Part shown: positions 2,971 to 22,747 of the stretch, piece by piece
How positions within the stretch are numbered: position 1 is the stretch's first letter
Layout of the letters: each line of letters begins with the position of its first letter
Assembly (NCBI GenBank): GCA_025782575.1
Contig: JALGYY010000017.1
Span: 62,001 to 126,000, forward strand
Source of the DNA: a bacterium
GTDB taxonomy: Bacteria; Orphanbacterota; Orphanbacteria; Orphanbacterales; Orphanbacteraceae
Length of the DNA stretch: 64,000 bases
Direction of reading: 5' to 3'
Made by a program: the position numbers and the translations under genes
Notes under the pieces: generated by a model
The model's input: the letters and a program-made list of their open reading frames with translations, nothing else
Told to the model about the DNA's origin: nothing
The model's database searches: none

Positions 2971-3117
2971 CTAAAGCAGGTCGTAGGCATCCACATCGAT
3001 CACCATCTCGGCCCGGCGACCGGCCGGGGTCCCCCGGAAGTGATCGGTCAGTTCCGCCATTCGGCGGCGCAGCCCGCTCCATCGTTCGACCTTCCCCTTG
3101 ATCATGAGCCTCCCTTG
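2971..3117 (-). pseudogene. priA: Out-of-frame C-terminal tail of PriA
   Basis: The reading frame -1 relative to priA encodes RLMIKGKVERW...AEMVIDVDAYDLL and then stops. PriA proteins end with the same kind of segment: [RQ]LLIK after the GPxPAP motif, then a terminal DVDPxxLL-like stretch. The annotated priA frame instead ends at TGA (3102-3104) shortly after GPTPAPIP. The homology-like continuation in another frame suggests either a natural indel, a programmed -1 shift or an assembly error. It should be read as part of priA, not as an independent gene. Confidence 0.7.
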
Positions 3118-5390
3118 GGGATCGGGGCGGGCGTCGGGCCGAGTATCTCCCAATAGAGCGGCCGACAAGTGGGATCCCTTCTGACCATTTCCCGAAAACG
3201 TCGGGCCGCGATTCGAGCCCTCCCATCCTGCCTGGCGCGGAACAGGATCGAGATGATCCGCGCGAAGGGGGGATATTTGAGTTCACGGCGATCCGCCAGC
3301 TCCCGCTCGACGAAAGACTCATAGTCATGAACGGCGGCGTAGCGAACACAGTAGTGATCCGGGGCGAATGACTGGAGTACCACCTCTCCAGGGGATTCGC
3401 CACGGCCGGCTCTTCCTGATACCTGGATCAGGAGCTGAAAGCTTCTCTCCCCCGCTCGGAAATCGGGCAGATGAAGAGCCGTATCGGCATTGACGACCCC
3501 GACGAGAGAAACACCGGGGAAGTGATGGCCCTTCGCGATCATCTGCGTTCCGAGCAGAATGTCGATCTGACCGGAGGCGAAGAGCTGGAGAATCTCCCGC
3601 GCGGAGTCGCGCCGCCTGGTCGTATCGAGATCCATGCGAGCGATCCGGGCACCCGGTACGGCCCTCGCCAGATCCTCCTCGACCCGCTGAGTGCCGATCC
3701 CCCGGTGGCTGATACGGTTCCCTTCGCATTCCGGACATTCCGCAGGCGGGACTTGCTCAGTGCCGCAGTAGTGGCAACGAAGAATAGGTTCCATTCTATG
3801 GTAGGTGTAGGCCACATCGCAGTGAGAGCAGCGCGGAACATATCCACAATCGGAACAGTGTAGAAAGGGGGAGAATCCCCTTCGATTCAGAAAGATCATC
3901 ACTTGATTCTTCTTCGAGAGCGCCGCGCGGATGCGGTCAACGAGCGGGAGCGTCAACGCGCCGACTCTGTCATCGTAGGGTTCTTTCCGAAGATCGATCA
4001 GTTTCACGCGGGGGAGCGGGCGGTTCTCGATTCTCTTCCGGAGTTCCGACTTTTCGTACTTTCCGGTCCGGGCGTTGTAATAGGATTCGATGCTCGGCGT
4101 CGCGCTTCCCAGTATGACGGGAGCATGGGCCAGGCGTGCCCTGACGACAGCCAGGTCGCGGGCGTGGTATCGAGGCGACTCTCCCTGCTTGTAGCTTCCG
4201 TCATGTTCCTCGTCCACGACGATCAGACCGATATCGCTGAGGGGCGCAAAAATGGCCGAGCGGACGCCCACCACTACAGGATAACGTCCCCGATGGATTT
4301 CACGCCACGTATCATGCCTTTCTGCGGGGGTGAGCCCGCTGTGAAGCACGACAGCTTCTTTCCCGAACCGGGCGCGGAAGCGGCCGACAGTCTGCGGTGT
4401 GAGGGCGATTTCCGGCACCAGAACGAGCACGGATCGTCCGACGCTCCGAGCCGCCGCCGCCGCCCGGATGTAGACCTCCGTCTTGCCGGAACTGGTAACG
4501 CCATGGAGAAGCCGGGCCTCGAAACGCCTCTCCTGAATGGCCAGCAGAATCGGATCGAGCGCCTTTTCCTGCTCCCCGGTTAGTTCTGGATCGACCTCCC
4601 CCCTCTCTTCGAGTTCGCCATGGGCGATCCTCGTCCGCTCTTCGAGAAACGTGCGGACCATTCCCTTCTTCTCCAGCGCGTCCGGCGCATTGCCGAATCG
4701 CGATCGGAGATCGGACCGGCGGGCACGCCGGATCGTTCGAAGATGGAGTAAGCACGCGATTTGGCGTACAGCGTTTTTGCGGAGAGTCCCTTCTACGCCA
4801 TCCACACATCCTTCGGGCAGAATCTCGACCCATGTCTCGCTCACCGCTCCACCCGGCGTATCCTCGAGCAGTGCCCGCACGACGATCCGGCCCGCCCTGG
4901 TCAGTCGCCTGAGAGCGGTCTCCAGCCTGGACGACTCTCCGGTTCGTTTCGCGAGTGTCGTAACGGGGAGCCTTCCGGACTCGATGACCATTTGAACGAT
5001 GCGATCGTCCAGAGAGTCTCCGTCAGGCGGTTCCCCATCCCCCGCAGGAAAAGCGTACCTTCTGCTCCGCCTGTTCCAACCGACCGGTAGTGCGGCACGA
5101 AGAATTTCTCCCCATGATGAGAGGTAGTAATCAGAGGCCCACTTCGTGAGCTTCAGCATCTCTGAAGTCACGATCGGCGATTCATCCAGGAATTCGTGAA
5201 TCTCTTTGATCCTGGCATCGGGCGGCTTGTCGGTCGTGCCGACGACCACACCCGTCAGGTGACGGGATCCGAAAGGGACAACGACCCGCCTGCCGACAAG
5301 AACGGAGTCCGCTGATTGATCAGACAATCGATAAGTGAATTCTTTCCGTGCCGGTACCGGCACGGCCACGACGACGTAGGGATGCGGCAA
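3102..5390 (-). CDS. priA: Primosomal replication restart helicase PriA (C-terminus frameshifted)
   Basis: PriA recognises stalled forks and reloads the replicative helicase. The 762-residue frame begins with the 3'-DNA-binding domain (VVVAVPVPARKEFTYRL). It continues with the superfamily-2 helicase core, with Walker A GVTSSGKTEVY and the Walker B-like VVDEEHDGSYKQ. The cysteine cluster follows (CSDCGYVPRCSHC...CHYCGTEQVPPAECPEC, eight Cys, two zincs), then helicase motifs V-VI (GTQMIAKGHHFPGV, QVSGRAGRG). The start is TTG with GGAG upstream. The frame ends at GPTPAPIPKGGS, about 45 residues before the expected end; the missing tail lies in the -1 frame downstream. The helicase itself is complete. 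Confidence 0.93.
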   Translation of the reverse strand: MPHPYVVVAVPVPARKEFTYRLSDQSADSVLVGRRVVVPFGSRHLTGVVVGTTDKPPDARIKEIHEFLDESPIVTSEMLKLTKWASDYYLSSWGEILRAALPVGWNRRSRRYAFPAGDGEPPDGDSLDDRIVQMVIESGRLPVTTLAKRTGESSRLETALRRLTRAGRIVVRALLEDTPGGAVSETWVEILPEGCVDGVEGTLRKNAVRQIACLLHLRTIRRARRSDLRSRFGNAPDALEKKGMVRTFLEERTRIAHGELEERGEVDPELTGEQEKALDPILLAIQERRFEARLLHGVTSSGKTEVYIRAAAAARSVGRSVLVLVPEIALTPQTVGRFRARFGKEAVVLHSGLTPAERHDTWREIHRGRYPVVVGVRSAIFAPLSDIGLIVVDEEHDGSYKQGESPRYHARDLAVVRARLAHAPVILGSATPSIESYYNARTGKYEKSELRKRIENRPLPRVKLIDLRKEPYDDRVGALTLPLVDRIRAALSKKNQVMIFLNRRGFSPFLHCSDCGYVPRCSHCDVAYTYHRMEPILRCHYCGTEQVPPAECPECEGNRISHRGIGTQRVEEDLARAVPGARIARMDLDTTRRRDSAREILQLFASGQIDILLGTQMIAKGHHFPGVSLVGVVNADTALHLPDFRAGERSFQLLIQVSGRAGRGESPGEVVLQSFAPDHYCVRYAAVHDYESFVERELADRRELKYPPFARIISILFRARQDGRARIAARRFREMVRRDPTCRPLYWEILGPTPAPIPKGGS

Positions 5391-6687: not shown

Positions 6688-7056
6688 TCAAACGTTTAGA
6701 AAGCTCTCGATTTTCTGGATGAGTTTGCTCGGGCTGAACGGTTTGACCATGTAGTCATCCGCACCAACTTCGATCCCCATCTTGCGATCCACTTCGCGTC
6801 CCTTCGCCGTCAACAGGATGACGGGAAGCTCCCGTGTCTCCGGATCATTCTTGAGTCTTCGGCACGCCTCGAAACCATCTACTTTCGGCATCATGACATC
6901 GAGCACCACGAGGTCAGGCTTTTCACCCCTGGCCTTAGCGAGCGCCTCCTCGCCGTCAGCGGCAGTGATGACTTCGTAACCTTCAGCACCGAGGCTGAAG
7001 TCGAGAATGTGCAGGATATAAACCTCATCATCGACAATCAGGATCTTTCGGCCCAT
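6688..7056 (-). CDS. Single-domain response regulator (CheY-like)
   Basis: Stand-alone receiver of 122 residues. All canonical residues are present: the acidic pair in VDDE (about residues 8-10), the phosphorylated Asp in VVLDVMMPKVDG, the Thr of LLTAKG and the Lys of DDYMVKPFS. There is no output domain, so it must work by protein contact, most likely with the other signalling proteins of this operon. It lies 6 bp downstream of a second, degenerate receiver and 31 bp upstream of the HD-GYP gene. Confidence 0.92.
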   Translation of the reverse strand: MGRKILIVDDEVYILHILDFSLGAEGYEVITAADGEEALAKARGEKPDLVVLDVMMPKVDGFEACRRLKNDPETRELPVILLTAKGREVDRKMGIEVGADDYMVKPFSPSKLIQKIESFLNV

Positions 7057-7062
7057 ACCGAC

Positions 7063-7470
7063 CTACCTCCTCTCCTTCACGTAGGAACTCTCTTCGAACC
7101 GAGCCTCTCCTGTGCGACCATGGAGAGCCCGATCAATCTGCTGCAATAGCCGCCGCTCGTCCTGGGAACTGATCGAAGCGTCCCTTCCGCCCGGCGTGTT
7201 GAAAGCAATAATCGGAATCTTGCAGGTGCTGCTGTCCCGACGGAGGAGCCGCGCCGAAGCGTAGCCGTCGAGATGGGGCATCATCATGTCCATCAGGATG
7301 ATGTCGGGCTTGTTCCGGCGAGCCAGGTCGACCACCATCGCTCCCGAGACTGCCGGCAGAACGGCGAATCCATTCCGTGTGAGGATCTCCTCTACTATTT
7401 GGAGAATCTCGTCGTTATCTTCCGCCACAAGAATCGTGGCGGCGGCCTTTTGATGAAGAGTGCTACCCAT
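7063..7470 (-). CDS. Degenerate stand-alone receiver domain protein
   Basis: This 135-residue receiver-like protein retains the acidic cluster (VAEDNDE) and the phosphorylatable Asp (IILMDMMMPHLDG). After PIIAFNTPGG it departs from the family: no switch Lys in a KP motif can be found, and the alpha4-beta5-alpha5 part is replaced by a charged tail (GRTGEARFEESSYVKERR). It may accept phosphate poorly or act as a phosphorylation-independent adaptor. Its start overlaps the end of the REC-GGDEF gene by 8 bp, indicating translational coupling. Confidence 0.8.
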   Translation of the reverse strand: MGSTLHQKAAATILVAEDNDEILQIVEEILTRNGFAVLPAVSGAMVVDLARRNKPDIILMDMMMPHLDGYASARLLRRDSSTCKIPIIAFNTPGGRDASISSQDERRLLQQIDRALHGRTGEARFEESSYVKERR

Positions 7471-19567: not shown

Positions 19568-22500
19568 TCATCGTACGATCGCGATCGTGATGATCGAGTG
19601 CTCGGTCCGGCCTCCTGCAATCGCCTCGATACGGGCAAAATAGACGCCGCTCGCAAGATCCGAAGTATCCCATACGATCTCACCGGTCTCGGCAGGGACC
19701 GCTCGATCACCCAGATCGGCGACGGCTCCGCCGGCCATGTCAAATATGGTGATCCGGAGCAGTGCCGCTTCCGTCACTCGATAGTGGATGATCGTCTCCG
19801 GCTCTCTCGACGGATTGGGGTACGCGAAGACTTCCGGCTCGATCAGCAGCGGTTCTCCGGACGGGATCTCGAATGGTGAACTCTCGAGCCAGCCGGTAAA
19901 ACCGAATCCGTTCTGGTAGCCATGCCACTGGATGACCGGTTCCCGGTCGACCGGCCAGACGAACAGATTGATTTCGCTTTTCGACGATGTCAGTAGGAAT
20001 GTCGTATCTTTGTCGGCAGTCATGCCGATCTGCACACCGTACTTGCCGACCGCGCCGACGCTTACCGGAAACCCGTTCTCAACCTGTCCTTTGGAGTCGA
20101 GAAGATAGAGAGCGCCGTGAGTCGTCACGAGCGCCACTTCCTGCTCGCCGTCACCGTCGAGATCCCCGACAGCGGGCGCGCCCGACAAGACGTCGAATGG
20201 TGAGGAAACGAGGCCGCTTCGCAGAGTGACCGGCCAGTCGATCTGGCGCGCACCTGTACTATGGTAAGCGTGGATCTTCCCGTCTTCGGTGCCGAACAGA
20301 ACCGCGCCGTGGCCATTCCTGTTGAGATCGGCGACGGCAGGATAGCCGGCTGATCGGGATTCGAGTGCCACTGGTAAGATATCATATGTTCCACCCGAGC
20401 CGGGCATCGCCAGAACGAGTTCCTTCCCGGCGAGGACCGCGAAGCCCTCTCCCTGAAAGAGCCCGGTCAACTCGTCATCACCAGGCGGGATCCCGCCTAC
20501 CACCGGCGTAGGAACATCGGATAGAGCGATTGTCTGTAGAGGGGCGCCACCTTCGGGGTTCAGAACGTAGAGCGCCGGGGCGTCGGTCGCTACAACCACC
20601 GGGCTCGACCCAGTACCGGGTCCGGTCGCTGTCCCGGGGAGTATCTCAGAATGGAACCCGTCCGCGTGGGGAGTCGTAACGGGCGGGACGATCACCGCAA
20701 ATGTGGAGTCGTCCACACTGAAGAGAGTAAGCCGATTTTCTCCACTAAGTGACACCAGATGACGGCCGGGCGCAGGACGCGTGGTCAAGCTGAAAATCTC
20801 CGTCGGATCCCCCAGATCAAGAGCTTTTGCGTAGATGCCTCCGAAAGCTAGTGGAAACAGGAGAAGAGGTTTGAGTATAAATACTTCGACCGGGGCGAAG
20901 ACCACCTCTCCCTTAACCGGCGACTGGAACGGCCACCCCTCCGCCGGCTCGCCGTCCAACCCGATCAGATTGCCGTAACTTTGGTCGAGGGCTGAGTCAT
21001 AGGTTGAGTAGGCGAACCAGGTACCATCAATCGCATCCGAACGAACCGGAACGACCGGCCCGACGATTCGCTGCCCCGGGGGAACACTTACAGGCCATCC
21101 GGGCACCGGTTCCCGAAACTTCACACTCATAGTCATCGTCTCGCCGGGCGGGCTCAGCACCTCGATCGTGATTCCGGTGTAGGCGCCGAAGTTCGATCTC
21201 GTGTTCGGCGTGGTCCCCGGACCGAAAACGACATCGCCCGCAATCGCCCTGTTTCCCACGTACCAGGAATCAAAATGAGTGCCGAAGTTGTCCAGAGATC
21301 GCGCGCGCAGATCGAGGTCCTGCAGATCGCCCGCCTCTTCCAGGTCCACCCCCTTGCGATCACGGTCGGCGTTCACGCGATTCCGTTCCCGAAAGTTCTT
21401 ATCCCCTCCCTCGGCGATCTTCTCTTCATCGATGTGCCAAATGAGCAGACCGCTCACCGGCAGGGTGTCGACCTGAGACCAGTCGAACTCCGCTTCCCGA
21501 TAGGAATCGGCGTACGTGTCGAAGCGGCCGTCTCCGTCGGCATCGTCGAACGTGAAGAGCCCGTCCCCGTTTTCATCAGCGAAACGGTTTTCAATCAGGA
21601 AGTACTCGGTCTCTGTAATCGGCACACGAATAATCCGTTCAACGTCATCTCCCGATTCCACCTGGTGGAGTTCGATCGTCGTATCACGAGTGATGGTGAG
21701 CGGTTCGATCCAGCCGAAATGGATCTTGGTCCATGCGGTGGGATGAGGGGGGAGAATCCCTCCCGAGTTCCAGAGGCCGGTGCCCATGATGCCGAAGTTA
21801 CCGATCCCCTGAGAGTCGGGGAAGTTACCCGGTGTCGGATCGAAAAGGGAAGGAGCGCCGAGCAGTCGTCCCATCATGTGGGCGGAGACACCGAGAATCC
21901 ACTGGGCCAGGCCGTCCTGGGTTTCACTTTCAGGAAGAAGGATTGTCTCCGTAATCGAGAACGGCCTTCCGTCGGCGGCGAGATCGTCTGTCGGAATTCC
22001 GTCGTAACTCCCCAATTCCGATGAATCGGCCAGTGCATCTTCAAAATCGGACCGGGAATAGAACGTCGTCCAGAGGTCGCCGGGAGAGTTGAACCCGACG
22101 TCCGTCTCCTCGCCGCAGCCGGCATGGATCACGGCGATGCCATCAAACAGGGAAAAGTCGACAAGCGGGTCAGACTGCTCGATTGCCGCCGCGACAAGAC
22201 GGGGCTGCCTGATCCCGATGGAGTCGTTCTCACCATAGTATGCCATCGGCTCCGGAGCCTGAAAGATGCTGTCCAGAACGGTCGGTTCAATTATCAGATG
22301 CCCATAGGAAACTTTTCGATAGTATTGGGAGACGTACCCCAGTTGAGCCCTGAAATAACGTGCATCATGAGGAACGCGGAGTGAGTCGCCGTCGGCTGCC
22401 AACCCCGGTGCTGTCAGGGTATCTTCCCAGATGATCTCGCTCGCATCAGGGACTGACCCGAATAGACCGTCTCCTGTGGTAGCGCCGTCACTGTCCGCAG

Positions 22501-22747
22501 GGAACTCGATCATGATCGCGAGAAGCCGGAACGTATCGACCTCGGCCGGCGCCCGCAGGGCGACCTTCGGCCTGGATTCCCTCGCTTCGATCAATACCGC
22601 GGCCGTGGATTCCAGGATTTTCGGTTTCGTGCCGGTCGACCGGTAAGAAGGAACGCCACCGGTCGGCACAGGCTGCGCCCCACCTGCCCATGCCGGTATC
22701 GAGAACAGGAGGGATGGCAGTACAAGAGACAAAAGAAGACGGTTCAA
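19568..22747 (-). CDS. Secreted M6-like pseudo-metalloprotease with type IX-type sorting domain
   Basis: Exported 1059-residue protein. A signal peptide (residues 1-21, ending SIPAWA) is followed by an M6 (immune inhibitor A-like) peptidase fold (about 70-560) with recognisable IGNFGIMGTGLWNSGG and LLIWHIDEE segments. The zinc motif is HMMGR (residues 290-294) instead of HEFGH: the catalytic Glu and second His are replaced, so proteolysis is unlikely. Repeat-like beta segments (LNRNGHGAVLFGTEDGKI, LDGDGEQEVALVT; about 650-960) resemble FG-GAP/VCBS propeller repeats. The C-terminus (AYPNPSREPETIIHYRV ... DLASGVYFARIEA) is a FlgD/Por-type sorting domain. The start is TTG with GGGAG six bases upstream. 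Confidence 0.88.
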   Translation of the reverse strand: MNRLLLSLVLPSLLFSIPAWAGGAQPVPTGGVPSYRSTGTKPKILESTAAVLIEARESRPKVALRAPAEVDTFRLLAIMIEFPADSDGATTGDGLFGSVPDASEIIWEDTLTAPGLAADGDSLRVPHDARYFRAQLGYVSQYYRKVSYGHLIIEPTVLDSIFQAPEPMAYYGENDSIGIRQPRLVAAAIEQSDPLVDFSLFDGIAVIHAGCGEETDVGFNSPGDLWTTFYSRSDFEDALADSSELGSYDGIPTDDLAADGRPFSITETILLPESETQDGLAQWILGVSAHMMGRLLGAPSLFDPTPGNFPDSQGIGNFGIMGTGLWNSGGILPPHPTAWTKIHFGWIEPLTITRDTTIELHQVESGDDVERIIRVPITETEYFLIENRFADENGDGLFTFDDADGDGRFDTYADSYREAEFDWSQVDTLPVSGLLIWHIDEEKIAEGGDKNFRERNRVNADRDRKGVDLEEAGDLQDLDLRARSLDNFGTHFDSWYVGNRAIAGDVVFGPGTTPNTRSNFGAYTGITIEVLSPPGETMTMSVKFREPVPGWPVSVPPGQRIVGPVVPVRSDAIDGTWFAYSTYDSALDQSYGNLIGLDGEPAEGWPFQSPVKGEVVFAPVEVFILKPLLLFPLAFGGIYAKALDLGDPTEIFSLTTRPAPGRHLVSLSGENRLTLFSVDDSTFAVIVPPVTTPHADGFHSEILPGTATGPGTGSSPVVVATDAPALYVLNPEGGAPLQTIALSDVPTPVVGGIPPGDDELTGLFQGEGFAVLAGKELVLAMPGSGGTYDILPVALESRSAGYPAVADLNRNGHGAVLFGTEDGKIHAYHSTGARQIDWPVTLRSGLVSSPFDVLSGAPAVGDLDGDGEQEVALVTTHGALYLLDSKGQVENGFPVSVGAVGKYGVQIGMTADKDTTFLLTSSKSEINLFVWPVDREPVIQWHGYQNGFGFTGWLESSPFEIPSGEPLLIEPEVFAYPNPSREPETIIHYRVTEAALLRITIFDMAGGAVADLGDRAVPAETGEIVWDTSDLASGVYFARIEAIAGGRTEHSIITIAIVR

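Follow-up and report, generated by a model that had tools for sequence, protein, structure and literature searches.

A 19-nt loss, known from a single assembly, very probably puts the end of priA out of frame in a member of the Orphanbacteraceae

The window, a stretch of 64,000 nucleotides from an Orphanbacteraceae genome (4.88 Mb, 49 contigs, 95% complete), harbours the single priA of that genome, and this gene is spread over two reading frames on the minus strand. The 0 frame starts at 5390 and runs to a TGA at 3104-3102, while the -1 frame has no stop from 3282 to 2974, i.e. across the priA junction, where the string CCCCAAGGGAGG occupies positions 3120-3109 (minus strand). The features of the locus are:

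3102..5390, minus strand: priA, 0 frame, 762 aa, ending GPTPAPIPKGGS-TGA, with the PriA_C domain cut short
2971..3111, minus strand: orphaned tail of PriA, -1 frame, reading RLMIKGKVERW...VIDVDAYDLL and closed by a TAG at 2973-2971
3113..3114, minus strand: junction between the Lys codon 3116-3114 and GG 3113-3112, at which 19 nt are absent compared to relatives
3102..3105, minus strand: ATGA overlap, the 0-frame stop lying over an in-frame ATG of the tail

An earlier, sequence-only reading had already described this ending of the priA frame and a PriA-like tail in the -1 frame, and open frames, tblastn, and codon usage agree with it. PriA of four relatives (G001, G002, G003, and G004) each matched the locus by tblastn as two adjoining pieces in neighbouring frames, the first stopping at 3114 and the second beginning at 3111, with seven query residues and two subject bases left unmatched in between. 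Judged by these matches, the frame break is not a product of chance. Without recourse to homology, the Viterbi path of a codon-usage model fitted to 42 long ORFs from the window placed the frame change at 3106/3107 and rated the codon use of the orphaned tail as coding-like. A second priA as functional stand-in was considered and rejected, the three other matches in the genome being weak hits to helicase domains.

The PriA of the window is 62-66% identical to that of same-family members, and its domains for 3' binding (PF17764, 3'BD), helicase activity (PF00270, DEAD; PF00271, Helicase_C), and zinc binding (PF18319, Zn_ribbon) all score above the Pfam cut-offs. It is a PriA helicase by its 3'BD, helicase domains, and Cys-rich region, with an incomplete PF18074: PriA_C is matched over positions 1-50 of 95 at 26.4 bits, below the cut-off of 26.9, compared to positions 1-94 of 95 at 58.3-65.5 bits in three control relatives. 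In the structure of the E. coli PriA/PriB/fork complex this C-terminal domain (CTD) helps to frame the ssDNA pore and touches the leading strand, and three CTD point variants, picked as potential points of contact with PriB, left fork binding, unwinding, and stimulation unchanged in the assays shown (PMC10175261).

What is missing becomes apparent from the six other genomes of the family (none of them from the genus of the window genome). A codon-by-codon comparison with these six genomes shows the Lys codon (3116-3114), GG alone, and then the codons for RLMIKG in the window, where all six carry seven extra residues (IRDRYRW-like, 21 nt) in one frame. Seven codons (21 nt) are thus reduced to 2 nt, which leaves 19 nt missing and shifts the frame. 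The consensus of the six genomes continues through the junction as GPxPAxIx[KR]-I-R-D-R-[YWFV]-R-W-R-[LVI]... to ...VDVDAxDLL, and the tail of the window is out of frame because 19 bases present in the relatives are absent. A small deletion had been suspected in the sequence-only reading from an apparently shortened RGRYRW-like stretch; the comparison bears out both remarks, except that the stretch is in fact wholly absent. Identity between the orphaned tail and the PriA tails of five same-family genomes amounts to 46-57%, compared to 37-84% among these five; the sixth genome (G005) was omitted because its tail equals that of G002.

The same pattern holds beyond the family. We aligned the last 250 residues of PriA from 105 distinct loci outside the window genome, the second source list contributing the best 80 of 285. 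Residues occupy all seven columns in 100 of these 105 (partly from the best 80 of 285), with at least 25 more following in frame, while the five exceptions run into a contig edge (four loci) or are N-masked (one). Arg stands in the sixth column for 98 of the 105, again partly from the best 80 of 285, and in the 0 frame of the window all seven columns are empty. The lost stretch corresponds to the conserved [IL]-[RK]-[DGN]-x-[YF]-R-[WYF] of the C-terminal domain, and in the relative L005 it aligns to PDB entry 4nl4 about 40 residues ahead of the chain end. None of the 100 evaluable relatives (partly the best 80 of 285) shares the break and, as had been proposed as a check, priA in close relatives was compared directly: the six family genomes keep one frame and none is split here. 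The break therefore counts as private to one lineage with an undecayed tail, on a comparison with genomes of other genera, in which an assembly error would look alike. It is recent or artefactual, since the tail has no stop, retains similarity at the level seen among relatives, and shows coding-like codon use.

The explanation we favour is that priA in this assembly has lost 19 nt directly before the codons of the final 46 residues. This loss removes the conserved stretch of the C-terminal domain and throws the remaining tail into the -1 frame, so that the conventional reading ends three codons on. Its origin may lie in bases dropped by assembly or consensus building, or in a recent deletion in the cell that would truncate PriA. 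Whichever of these applies, comparison of the sequences makes it very probable that the break, known from one assembly, is a private, non-programmed loss of 19 nt. Rather than a hidden recoding signal, the locus most likely shows a recent mutation of an ordinary kind or a fault of the assembly.

Two readings would keep the tail in use. A programmed -1 ribosomal frameshift at C_CCC_AAG, joining both priA frames, is extremely improbable: the Pro tRNA can re-pair on the run CCCC, and C_CC.C is described as weakly shifty in E. coli given a strong stimulator (PMC4066793), but the junction has no codons for the seven conserved residues, which the fusion product would still lack. According to the treatment of site classes in PMC4066793, C_CCC_AAG is a Z_ZZN tetramer only and no X_XXZ_ZZN heptamer, and Z_ZZN motifs definitely need a strong stimulator. 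However, no Shine-Dalgarno (SD) sequence lies 6-17 nt upstream of the slip site (the nearest GGAG is 26 nt away), and the fold of 3125-3000 was weaker than its shuffles in a test of structures other than pseudoknots (z +1.72, 195 of 200 shuffles at least as stable). Absence of the break from all 100 evaluable relatives (partly the best 80 of 285) adds to this, so that the programmed frameshift offered as an option by the sequence-only reading finds no support in conservation, upstream SD, fold stability, or the residues of the product. The SD-like AAGGGAGG which that reading had pointed out does exist; it lies inside and after the slip site, though, and hence not upstream of it. A literature search at the level of titles and abstracts found no paper on a priA frameshift or a primosomal one. 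The same string enters the other reading, a PriA in two pieces, with translation of the tail starting anew at the ATGA overlap that follows AAGGGAGG and the tail acting in trans. Here, the ATG overlaps the stop and the SD-like string is found just upstream, but the spacing from SD to ATG is 3 nt only, one of the six same-family genomes has ATG at the Met position and five have CTG or TTG, none of the six is split at this site, and the seven lost residues would be in neither piece. We consider this arrangement highly unlikely, and the ATGA overlap is a by-product of the frame break at the junction. It also seems very unlikely that the organism genuinely does without the conserved second half of this C-terminal domain, be it with a truncated PriA or with a separate 44-aa tail from the ATGA.

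The remaining choice is between the cell and the assembly. A real recent deletion would leave a 762-aa PriA that lacks half of the C-terminal domain, namely the second, and is predicted to be impaired or partly functional; we give this nearly even chances. The remaining priA is open, with its helicase, zinc, and 3'BD domains above cut-offs, and the break removes only about the last 7% of the protein. Further, 19 nt are long for a base-calling slip, and a loss of exactly 19 nt from unique sequence is rare in assemblies. For frameshifts close to the 3' end, a real indel is the more likely cause (PMC3711429), and the three E. coli CTD point variants were wild-type-like in the assays shown (PMC10175261). 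On the other hand, the lost stretch is found in 100 of 105 relatives and the other five are unreadable there (partly the best 80 of 285), the E. coli CTD helps to frame the ssDNA pore and is in contact with the leading strand (PMC10175261), there is no other priA in the genome, and the contig has a second frame break, which is a hint of problems in the assembly. The analysis of PMC3711429 expects sequencing errors, and not genuine indels, behind lone frameshifts validated by BLASTp, and many bacterial pseudogenes are described as assembly errors (PMC11017572). Taken together, a loss during assembly or consensus building appears slightly favoured as the origin, with somewhat better than even odds and a real recent deletion close behind.

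The second frame break lies in a hydrolase-like gene, so judged from its own sequence, at G000:C2:7052-8637 (L139, minus strand), outside the window and about 58 kb from the priA junction. Proteins of two relatives match it in two adjacent frames, with 3 residues versus 8 bases in between, which suggests small indels elsewhere on the contig. It emerged from a cross-genome screen in which stretches sampled from five genomes were compared by tblastn and antisense frames were filtered out. The first run gave ten rows, namely four for priA, one for the hydrolase-like gene, and five others that were gone after the antisense-frame filter and changed thresholds; two of these five, both in L140, were inspected and traced to antisense or neighbouring-gene effects. 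With this screen, the window genome had 2 breaks per 159,710 homology-covered bases (priA and the hydrolase-like gene) and the relatives G001-G004 together 0 per 363,095 covered bases; a smaller sample gave 2 per 132,730 covered bases versus 0 per 334,263 in relatives. By our own arithmetic, 2 versus 0 breaks would occur at equal rates with a probability of about 9%, and the fair count, 1 versus 0 without priA, with about 31%. The difference is a weak hint because priA prompted the screen and is one of the two breaks. An 8-N gap is located on the same contig (L144 9884-9891, G000:C2:175884-175891) inside an inverted repeat, GAAGTGCGATCGCC...GGCGATCGCACTTC, and looks as if the assembly had failed at a hairpin; the contig is scaffolded, as this gap demonstrates, and no N occurred in the sampled stretches of G001-G004.

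Within the window, a Pfam scan of 40 further ORFs, a part of all, gave a match for 31 of the 40, and inspection of these 40 by eye revealed no second domain cut by a stop with its rest in another frame. Two tandem response-regulator frames are found at 6690-7470 on the minus strand, the second of them intact-looking. Near priA, two tandem regulator matches also occur in five of the six remaining genomes of the family. The regulator at 7066-7470 was considered as a broken gene and rejected: it is short (1-76 of 111 positions of the receiver model), yet most of it is matched in five of the six other genomes of the family. A 1059-aa protein at 19571-22747 (minus strand) has the C-terminal sorting domain Por_Secre_tail as its sole Pfam match (28.8 bits, cut-off 27). 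This domain is linked to type IX secretion, and the protein may indicate that the lineage has a type IX-like secretion signal.

If the second half of the domain had truly been given up, replication restart in this organism would tolerate being without a stretch that every one of the 100 evaluable relatives has (partly the best 80 of 285). The favoured reading, a non-programmed loss of 19 nt, removes a candidate recoding signal instead and illustrates that two frames at a plausible slip site can reflect a mere small deletion; the discriminating test is whether or not the codons of conserved residues are absent at the junction. Moreover, the contig possibly carries small assembly deletions, which bears on other findings made there.

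Compared to PriA (Primosomal protein N'; PF17764, PF18319, PF18074; PDB 4nl4, 6dgd, and 8fak, retrieved with the relative L005 as query), the likeness of the window copy runs up to the Lys preceding the lost stretch, while its C-terminal domain is cut, its tail is out of frame, and 19 nt are absent. Genes of the dnaX and IS3-family type are known for programmed -1 frameshifts. With these, priA of the window has overlapping 0 and -1 frames and a run of four C in common, but it differs by having no heptamer, no stimulators, no conserved site, and no fusion that yields the full protein, and coding bases are missing. Set beside the lone frameshifted genes that GeneTack classes as pseudogene or sequencing error (PMC3711429), priA of the window resembles these as a singleton that is backed by homology, lies at the 3' end, and has no conserved recoding motif, and it stands apart from them in having lost 19 nt rather than one or two bases.
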